Shown here: in pieces, positions 41,334-58,153 of the stretch
Layout of the letters: every line of letters starts with the position of its first letter
Numbering within the stretch: position 1 is the stretch's first letter
Source of the DNA: Apostichopus japonicus
Lineage: Eukaryota; Echinodermata; Holothuroidea; Aspidochirotida; Stichopodidae
DNA length: 64,000 bases
NCBI RefSeq assembly: GCF_037975245.1
Contig: NC_092575.1
Span: forward strand, 821,001-885,000
Reading direction: 5' to 3'
The notes under the pieces: model-generated
Database searches by the model: none
Seen by the model: the letters and a program-made list of their open reading frames with translations, nothing else
Told to the model about the DNA's origin: nothing
Program-made: the position numbers and the translations under genes

Positions 41334-44300
41334 ATGGCGTTCCCGGAGGACTCGCAGTTAACATCGGGTGCGTATACATAAACATATATACAAAAATATA
41401 TATTATATAAATATTATATTCAAGCAACATGGGTGTAGGCATGTCAGCCAAACATGTTTCTCATCGTTTCAGTCAGCAACATGCTCTAGTTAACTATAAA
41501 TGCAATTAAAGTGAATGTGACATACATACGGAATTTATTTTAATTTAATAATATGAAAAGTGAGCTCGACATTTCATGAGAATGGTCTTAATATTATTAT
41601 ATATTATGGAATAATAATATTTTCAGACTTACCAATTGATAAGTAATTTTTGAGTTAGTTGACACACTGTTTTTATATACTTCTTTCCCTGTTGTTGTTT
41701 ATGCTCACTTCTAAATTTACCATTGTACATATATGCTTATTACGATACACAACTTGAAATTTAATTTTGTTTGATGTTTTGTTATGTGTAATAAAGACTA
41801 AAGCATTGATTCATGGAGTAGGCAATATTCTGAAGCAGGTTCCAAAGAATAACTCTTTTTGCCAACAAGGTACACCCTCCAATAACAACAAAACCCACTT
41901 TATATGTAAGCTTTGATGTAAACTTTCCTCTATGCATTATCACTGTTTGCAAGGGGGGCAATGGACTAGTTGTAATCCCCTTTCTAAGCCCAAATTATTG
42001 CTTGTCTGAAACACGACATTGTTTTGCTATAGGCTATTCAACCTCACCTGGAATCCTTTTTTTTTTCAATTTTTGTTTTTATGACACTTGCTTAGGAGCT
42101 GAAATTTAAATTTCTTTGATCATTTGTAGATTTGAAAGCATCCAACTAAACCTATAAAAGAAAACGTAAACGTCACTGATCAGTTTACAAACTGGAGAAG
42201 CATTCAAGAATCTTAAATGTTCTTCTACCTGGGGAAGATTTTTTATGTCCGTATTGTTCTGTTAAATCTTCTGTAAAACCAGTCCTGTTCTTAATAATCA
42301 TAATAGCCATATGCAATGTTATAAGTTTTTACACTGTTGTAGAGATGACAGGTATGATGGAAGACACGGAGCTTGATGATGGTTTTGTGCAGGTCAGGGA
42401 ACAATTGGGAAACAGTAACGGTAATATTTTAGTTCGTACTTCAGATTTATTATTCAGAGGACTAGAAAAGTGTTGAATTCCTCAGACCCTCACTGTACCT
42501 CTCGTTTAGTGATTCTGGGGTATAGGTTCTTCATTGGGAAAATGAATGGTTATTAGTACTTAAAAGTATAGGTAACGCGAAACACATGATTACTCGTGTT
42601 GCTTTAAAGCCCAACAGCAGGCACTGATTTATATAGTTACAGAGTTTTATGTTTGCCACATAACAATGCACGATGCTGACTATGCATTTATCCACACACA
42701 AAATAAATAATAACAATCAGATGTCGCAATAGGGTAATCCCTAGTTTCACAATTGACTATAATTCCGAGTTACTAGCATGAAGTGTTTTTAAATGTACAC
42801 ACACACCTACGTACATATTTGTGGCGTACATCACCGCACTGTATATTGATATAACGTACAGGGTTGTACAGTTGTTTGTTCATGGTACAACTAGGGAGCT
42901 GTTAGAGTAGCAGCTCCCTGGTACAACTAAGTCTACGTTTGAAAAACAGAATATTTGTAATGAAATCCGTTCAGATGTCGCAATAGGGTAATCCCTAGTT
43001 TCACAATTGGCTATTATTCCGAGTTACTAGCATGAGGTGTTTTTAAATGTACACACACACCTACGTACATATTTGTGGCGTACATCACCGCACTGTATAT
43101 TGATATAACGTACAGGGTTGTACAGTTGTTTGTTCATGGTACAACTAGGGAGCTGTTAGAGTAGCAGCTCCCTGGTACAACGAAGTCTACGTTTGAAAAA
43201 CAGAATATGTGTAATGAAATCCGTTCAGATGTCGCAATAGGGTAATCCCTAGTTTCACAATTGGCTATTATTCCGAGTTACTAGCATGAGGTGTTTTTTA
43301 ATGTACACACACACCTACGTACATATTTGTGGCGTACACGACCGCAGTGTATATTGATATAACGTACAGGGTTGTACAGTTGTTTGATAATGGTACAACG
43401 AAGTCTACGTTTGAAAAACAGAATATGTGTAATGCAGAGCAGTTGAGAATATATGCACTGTTCTCATCTTGATAATACATAGATGTTGGAATTAAAACAA
43501 TTGATATCTTGATTGAAACTCAAGACTGTAACTCAGCTATAAAGCCTGATGAAAGTGGCGATCCCTGCATAGCATAGAATAGCAATTTGGTTGCTTAATG
43601 GGAGAGGCCAGCCTGCAAGATAAGTTCAGTAGATGGGAAATATGCCAACAGCCCAATACCATGAATCCCTACGTATACATTGGGGTATGATTCTTATCGA
43701 TTTGATTCCAAATAATAACATAAACAAACTACACAAACAGTCGTACTCAGTGAATTCAGCCTGAAATAAATATGAATGTTTGGTTAGTTTTGCTAACCAT
43801 TGGAGAATTATTTTGGGGGAGGGGGAGGGCGGCAGAAGGAAGTTACCTGCTTTGTTCTGTGAACTTTGTTAAGCTTCGTAATTGATGATATACGATACCT
43901 TTATCAGGATTGATGCCTATTATGATAATTCGTAGGCATATAATGAACCCCAAACTGTTCCTATAATCTTCGTTAGACTGACATCTGATGTTGCTTTTAT
44001 CATTTTGTAGAGAAGACACGTAGGCTGGGAGATTCGGATGCTACTGGTAATTGTGTATCATTCACAGATCAATTGGAGACAAATAGTGGTAATGTTATTA
44101 TCATTTCATATTAACCGTATTACTTATATCAGTTCATTGATACACACTATGTTTCCACTTCCATTCCATCACGATATTTCCGGACAACATAAAGTTTCTT
44201 GTATGTGTATTAACATATAAAATCACTTCCATGCAGATAGGGTAATCCTAAGTAACGCAATAGCCTTATAACAATAGCAGCATGTATCTATATACATACA

Positions 44301-58153: not shown

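Follow-up and report, generated by a model that had tools for sequence, protein, structure and literature searches.

Results

Fifteen in-phase exons on the forward strand

The window, that is, the whole stretch of 64,000 nucleotides of Apostichopus japonicus DNA that was analyzed, corresponds to contig C15:821001-885000 of the assembly in which the genome searches were carried out (671,581,487 bases in 35 contigs). On its + strand an in-phase splice chain was rebuilt that runs from an ATG at 41334 to a stop codon at 58153 and comprises 15 exons with 1557 codons plus the stop. An earlier note on this DNA had described a model of 16 exons and 1574 codons; the in-phase chain and both of its ends were recovered, and the exon and codon counts had to be corrected. 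From the residue numbering of that model, the mismatch lies among the short exons that precede exon 10 (41334-46711). The nine short 5' exons of the rebuilt chain (41334..46711, + strand; about 167 amino acids) are located at 41334-41367, 42343-42420, 44011-44088, 44867-44971, 45222-45283, 45422-45446, 45838-45890, 46458-46502 and 46690-46711; most of them have weak coding and splice scores, and they are the least certain part of the model. The single terminal exon of 804 codons (55742-58153) proposed earlier was confirmed, as 803 codons and the stop; at the local intron composition, the chance of an open frame of 819 codons is about 10^-21.5.

A coding score trained on exon 15 was compared with that of 500 intronic controls. 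The score of exons 12 and 13 was reached by none of the 500, and the values for the other exons were 0.008 (exon 14), 0.012 (exon 10), 0.12 (exon 11) and 0.004 to 0.48 (exons 1-9). The coding character of exons 10 and 12-15 is well supported, and that of exon 11 less so by its codon score. Exons 10-13 are entered and left in phase 1, exon 14 is entered in phase 1 and left in phase 0, and exon 15 is entered in phase 0. When splice sites were scored, poor acceptors were found for exon 7 (40th percentile), exon 13 (31st) and exon 15 (73rd); the donor of exon 14 stands at the 98.5th percentile. Two further features lie within introns: a 254-base tandem repeat between exons 2 and 3 (42717-43399; 2.7 copies, 97% matches), and a THAP domain frame on the - strand between exons 11 and 12 (50904-51251; Pfam E = 8.7e-7), which is possibly the remnant of a DNA transposon.

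Candidate death-fold exons 10 and 11

Exon 11 (48910..49188, + strand) is a candidate DED-like death-fold domain, for which a PDB match, relatives in the genome and a profile were available. Searched alone against the PDB, it gave only one match, DED1ch (E = 0.37). Five relatives were found in the genome, with E-values from 0.0014 to 0.57, and three of these were scanned with Pfam, where no curated cut-off was reached: L046, whose link to exon 11 is 0.0014, matched DED at 0.0022; L048 (link 0.015) matched DED at 0.0064; and L050, linked at just 0.57, matched DUF2095 (8e-5), Death (3.6e-4) and DED (0.08). Exon 10 (47293..47562, + strand), a possible DED-like domain, was recognized by its alignment with exon 11 and the relatives of the latter. 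The genome search yielded no relative of exon 10 elsewhere and the PDB search with this exon alone no sensible match; its score against a profile built without it was reached by 3 of 2000 shuffles. A joint death-fold profile that includes exon 10, searched against the PDB at E ≤ 10, gave 21 matches, the best of them to MALT1 (0.021-0.033), with cFLIP at 0.18-2.3, the Pelle death domain at 0.75-0.77 and unrelated proteins interspersed.

Through these relatives and the profile, a death fold is supported for exon 11 (given that L046 and L048 match DED, and that MALT1, cFLIP and Pelle are among the profile matches) and less strongly for exon 10. The two DED-like exons of the earlier reading are retained with this gradation, and with no curated cut-off reached. 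The whole-genome Pfam DED scan returned 84 matches at E ≤ 1, of which 32 are above the curated cut-off, and exons 10 and 11 are absent from that list. Dense clusters of DED exons, many of them above the Pfam cut-off, were observed on contig C16 at approximately 10.2-11.1 Mb and at 1.86-1.91 Mb.

TRADD-N-like exons 12 and 13

Exon 12 (52005..52391, + strand) and exon 13 (53527..53877, + strand; with an uncertain 5' boundary and a weak acceptor) are tandem duplicates that share 34% identity (pairwise E = 1.2e-14). The sole Pfam match of a piece of exon 12 was TRADD-like_N (E = 0.12), and exon 13 matched ACT_5 (E = 0.0048), whose fold has been described as related to that of TRADD-N (PMC8195603). 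The uS motif, which the same source places at the beta2-beta3 turn of TRADD-N domains (PMC8195603), can be read by eye as Gly-Ser in exon 12; exon 13 has DG, without the Ser. A genome search found relatives of exon 12 at six places on contigs C1 and C8, and this link is weak because the E-values are just 0.066 to 0.84. These relatives match TRADD-like_N (PF20694) with a best value of 1.5e-4; the matching members are three of the eight aligned, exons 12 and 13 of the window not among them, and both exons are also absent from the list of the whole-genome TRADD-like_N scan at E ≤ 1. From the tandem pair, the match on the exon 12 piece and the weakly linked relatives, we favour a TRADD-N-like nature for both exons; this part of the earlier reading is kept tentatively, with scores of the exons themselves that lie below the cut-off. 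A PDB search with exon 13 alone gave no sensible match, EcoP15I was taken as a chance match of the TRADD-N profile in the PDB (E = 0.71), and the structure predicted for exons 12 and 13 together (mean pLDDT 53.3; best Foldseek E = 0.44) was too poor for any claim about the fold.

TRADD-N-like exons are present in the genome on contigs C1, C8 and C17. The best TRADD-like_N match of the genome (24.1 bits with neighbours) is found at L035 (C9:7362700-7363400), within a frame of 2163 codons that we take for NCOA6. On C1, at about 3.34-3.35 Mb (L051-L053, L029 and L030), exons that resemble CARD, DED and TRADD-N are arrayed upstream of a URGCP domain (Pfam E = 4.5e-38), presumably of the VLIG type; the CARD-like exon scored 0.0094 in Pfam. 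This locus served as a control, in that three of its exons which had no part in building the TRADD-N and DED profiles were recovered with them (E = 2.5e-7, 2.7e-5 and 4.6e-4); three exons of the locus that were taken for DED- or TRADD-N-like had no such match in the Pfam scan. Like the window gene, the C1 locus carries related DED and TRADD-N exons, and its TRADD-N exons, judged by eye, also leave in phase 1. In contrast, its apparent partner is the URGCP domain.

Exon 15 belongs to a family of NERD and SF1-helicase-like sequences

Exon 15 (55742..58153, + strand; 803 amino acids) would encode a NERD-like domain and an SF1-helicase-like P-loop module, as judged from family and profile matches. 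It is a member of a host family with at least 22 other loci in the genome, counted as distinct places, and a query with a paralog gives the same places. The full-length exon matched the PADLOC profile NERD+UvrD (E = 0.016). When 11 family members were scanned with PADLOC, the best values were 6.1e-6 for GajB (one member), 7.2e-6 for NERD+UvrD (four members, the window copy included), 2.2e-5 for Nhi (five members) and 0.0022 for viperin-associated NERD (one member). In Pfam the same members matched AAA_22 (1.7e-4, five members) and UvrD-helicase (8.3e-4, one member), and none of the 11 full-length sequences matched NERD at E ≤ 0.1; shorter pieces of exon 15 matched Pfam NERD below the cut-off, at 0.0016 (a 202-amino-acid piece) and 0.012. 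These PADLOC and Pfam matches, together with the family alignment, support homology of exon 15 to NERD and SF1 P-loop proteins, and so bear out the NERD-like and helicase-like assignment made earlier.

The only Pfam match of exon 15 as a whole was COesterase (0.0046), which is implausible and was set aside; because of this value, a single-sequence E-value of about 0.005 cannot settle an assignment. Barstar, Glyco_hydro_4, Sigma54_activat and other Pfam matches were likewise set aside as chance-like. Against the PDB, exon 15 alone had no match at E ≤ 10, and the best match of the family profile, PcrA (E = 0.75), was not significant, yet it aligned on the P-loop. The NCBIfam scan returned one match, at 0.14; the predicted structure of exon 15 alone (mean pLDDT 32.8) was discarded as too poor to test the fold; and a search for relatives in viral contigs gave two stretches that fit a pattern, neither of which was confirmed. 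Every single-sequence Pfam score of the death-fold, TRADD-N and NERD/SF1 domains of the window is below its curated cut-off. The domain reading put forward in the earlier note survives for the most part through profiles and paralogs, and has no direct match over a cut-off.

Exon 14 and its junction with exon 15

Exon 14 (54449..54921, + strand; about 157 amino acids) bridges the adaptor exons, in phase 1, and the large exon, in phase 0. No domain match was obtained for it in the profile scans, and the genome search gave a single further match, which contains three stops (E = 0.16). The alternative to a single gene is a pair of neighbours, one with the DED and TRADD-N exons that ends downstream of exon 14, and another that encodes the NERD-SF1 module and begins near 55700. 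Between exons 14 and 15 there is an AATAAA (55711), at which a gene could end. In addition, the open frame of exon 15 extends upstream as far as an ATG at 55706, and the acceptor at 55742 is weak (73rd percentile). This acceptor lies 61 codons before a conserved Cys, and the boundary of exon 15 differs from that of its paralogs because their scored acceptors lie 1-14 codons before the Cys. Moreover, a profile search of 3089 frames detected no adaptor-like exons in the 9.6-12.3 kb upstream of ten exon 15 paralogs (best E = 0.58; 10 of the 22 other family loci were covered), and by coordinate comparison none of the genome DED and TRADD-N matches listed lies beside a locus of the exon 15 family.

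Against two genes, exon 14 is left and exon 15 is entered in the same phase, 0; the donor of exon 14 is good, at the 98.5th percentile; and the two exons are just 820 bases apart. In the large exons of 15 paralogs that were inspected, the scored acceptor is in phase 0 in eight cases and in phase 1 in two, and the remaining five had none above the filter. The phase agreement at the junction, together with the paralog acceptors, supports a single gene without amounting to proof, and we regard two separate genes as somewhat unlikely. If the linkage to adaptor exons is real, it would have occurred once among the 11 loci examined.

Catalytic-type residues lost in the window copy

The window copy was aligned with 20 of the 22 other loci; C13:26.18 Mb, which has internal stops, and C7:16.44 Mb were left out, and the fragment L044 was excluded from the tree and from the count of 19 paralogs. 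The names of the Walker motifs, motifs V and VI and the NERD residues are those that we presume to apply to this alignment. In the NERD-like core (56360..56479, + strand), the Asp at 56369 is kept, as in 21 of 21 aligned members, and Ser (56417) and Thr (56477) stand where all 20 paralogs have Lys and Gln. Of the nuclease pattern D...(E/Q)xK the window copy keeps D, and (E/Q)xK reads KxS; the K is found in all 20 paralogs. Walker A, GDYGTGKS, is intact (56885..56908, + strand). In the Walker B region (57203..57241, + strand), His at 57218 takes the place of the Asp found in the 19 paralogs that cover the position, and the next Glu is kept. A cluster of the form C.C...C.C...R, a possible zinc site, is also kept (57527..57595, + strand). 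Further downstream (57821..57922, + strand), the motif V-like G.E has become T.G and the motif VI-like Arg has become Lys, residues for which all 19 covering paralogs have Gly, Glu and Arg. The window copy is the only one of the 21 aligned members without these NERD, Walker B and motif V/VI-like residues.

There are 28 columns that are conserved in 18 or all of the 19 full paralogs; the window copy keeps 21 of them and departs from seven, six of which are in catalytic-type motifs. In a leave-one-out comparison it departs from 12 out of 49 near-invariant columns. Such overall divergence is not unique, because four paralogs show at least 12 departures in 53-54 columns (L026 at 16, L040 at 12, L045 at 14 and the fragment L044 at 22), whereas the catalytic-type losses are unique to the window copy. 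A decaying pseudogene or a failed fusion without function would account for the loss of conserved residues and for a tree branch (1.53) that is longer than those of the nearest relatives (1.06, 0.78 and 1.27). However, the frame extends over 803 codons with no stop, the 21 conserved columns that are kept include the Cys cluster, and L040 and L045, on even longer branches (1.93 and 1.86), keep the catalytic-type motifs; we consider decay improbable.

We likewise consider it improbable that exon 15, attached to death adaptors and with its motifs altered, still works as a nuclease-helicase effector that acts directly on nucleic acid. In favour of this, the window copy retains Walker A, the Glu of Walker B and the Asp of the NERD core; against it, the copy has changed the Lys and Gln of NERD, the Asp of Walker B, the Gly and Glu that resemble motif V and the Arg that resembles motif VI, all of them kept by every paralog that covers them. 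The term ATPase used in the earlier note has become doubtful on the same grounds, with the Walker B Asp to His change and three further helicase-type residues altered. Because the losses are unique to the window copy and the ten paralogs examined upstream lack adaptor exons, exon 15 is probably a pseudo-enzyme: a recognition module joined to death adaptors and not a working ATPase.

Discussion

Proteins that combine DED and TRADD-N domains with variable partners have undergone expansion in marine invertebrates, echinoderms among them, and have been proposed to be immune or apoptotic proteins (Kaur et al. 2021, PMC8195603); their partners include Mov10, DDX60, RLR-like proteins, GTPases, STING and PARP (PMC8195603). 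The window gene is similar to these metazoan proteins (DEDD2-clade expansions) in its putative N-terminal death-fold and TRADD-N-like domains followed by a variable C-terminal partner, and differs in that NERD-SF1 is not among the partners named in the sections consulted of that paper (PMC8195603). Its architecture would belong within this already described class, which includes RNA helicases. What is new here is the loss of catalytic-type residues unique to the window copy and a NERD-SF1 partner that is unreported in the open-licence literature searched (supplements excluded), where no animal NERD-helicase joined to TRADD-N was found.

RLRs and NLRs also join a death-fold domain to a P-loop NTPase. 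The window exons differ from both in that scans for NACHT, LRR, CARD and SF2 RIG-I-type domains gave nothing above threshold in them; sub-threshold matches to nSTAND_NTPase5 (0.054) and DEAD (0.053) came from the P-loop piece alone. A placement outside the NLR and RLR families, as stated in the earlier note, agrees with these scans, with the amendment that the architecture falls in a class described before (PMC8195603). In bacteria, NERD domains take part in defence, in PglW and in Mokosh I and Nhi-like proteins, and inactive enzymes have been discussed as possible decoys (PMC12839542, PMC10952713, PMC7159879). The bacterial Nhi and Nhi-like proteins (NERD+UvrD) and Gabija GajB resemble the exon 15 family in the PADLOC profile matches and in the order of NERD and then an SF1 P-loop, whereas in the window copy key catalytic-type residues are missing and the module seems to be attached to animal death adaptors.

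The reading that we favour, tentatively and with a confidence that falls just short of even, is that of one host gene, expressed as a single transcript, with two DED-like and two TRADD-N-like domains, the exon 14 segment, and a degenerate NERD and SF1-like pseudo-enzyme module. In such a protein the exon 15 module would have lost the cutting and unwinding of nucleic acid and, with Walker A kept, would have retained nucleotide binding; it may bind a ligand, for which viral nucleic acid and a protein from a pathogen are the candidates. Once bound or clustered, the modules would bring the DED and TRADD-N domains together, the gathered domains could recruit DED-bearing caspases or adaptors and TRAF-like partners, and the recruited partners would lead to cell death or NF-kB signalling. 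The lost catalytic residues suggest that the protein is no enzyme but a sensor or a decoy coupled to cell death. Within this reading, the open exons in phase, the kinship of exon 15 with its paralogs and the changed residues can be read directly from the sequence; the death-fold and TRADD-N assignments have support short of proof, and the single transcript, the ligand, the assembly and the signalling are inferred. If one gene is present, it would directly unite, in an animal, death-receptor-type adaptors with a relative of the NERD-helicase proteins of bacterial defence.

Integrated decoys occur in plant NLRs. An animal counterpart, in which about 19 NERD-helicase members have intact motifs and a single copy, catalytically dead, is linked to DED and TRADD-N domains, is conceivable and on balance unlikely; the task of that copy would be to detect pathogen products directed against the intact enzymes, or nucleic acid on which these enzymes act, and to trigger cell death. 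Since an inactivated copy, apparently linked to adaptors, occurs together with paralogs whose motifs are preserved, the sensor or decoy idea could be tested within one genome.

Elsewhere in the window, Adaptin_N exons are found at 19051-22879 (- strand), which we take to be part of a gene that probably encodes beta-adaptin, and a 54-base tandem repeat (16.7 copies, 93% matches) with long open frames on both strands occupies 12681-13582.
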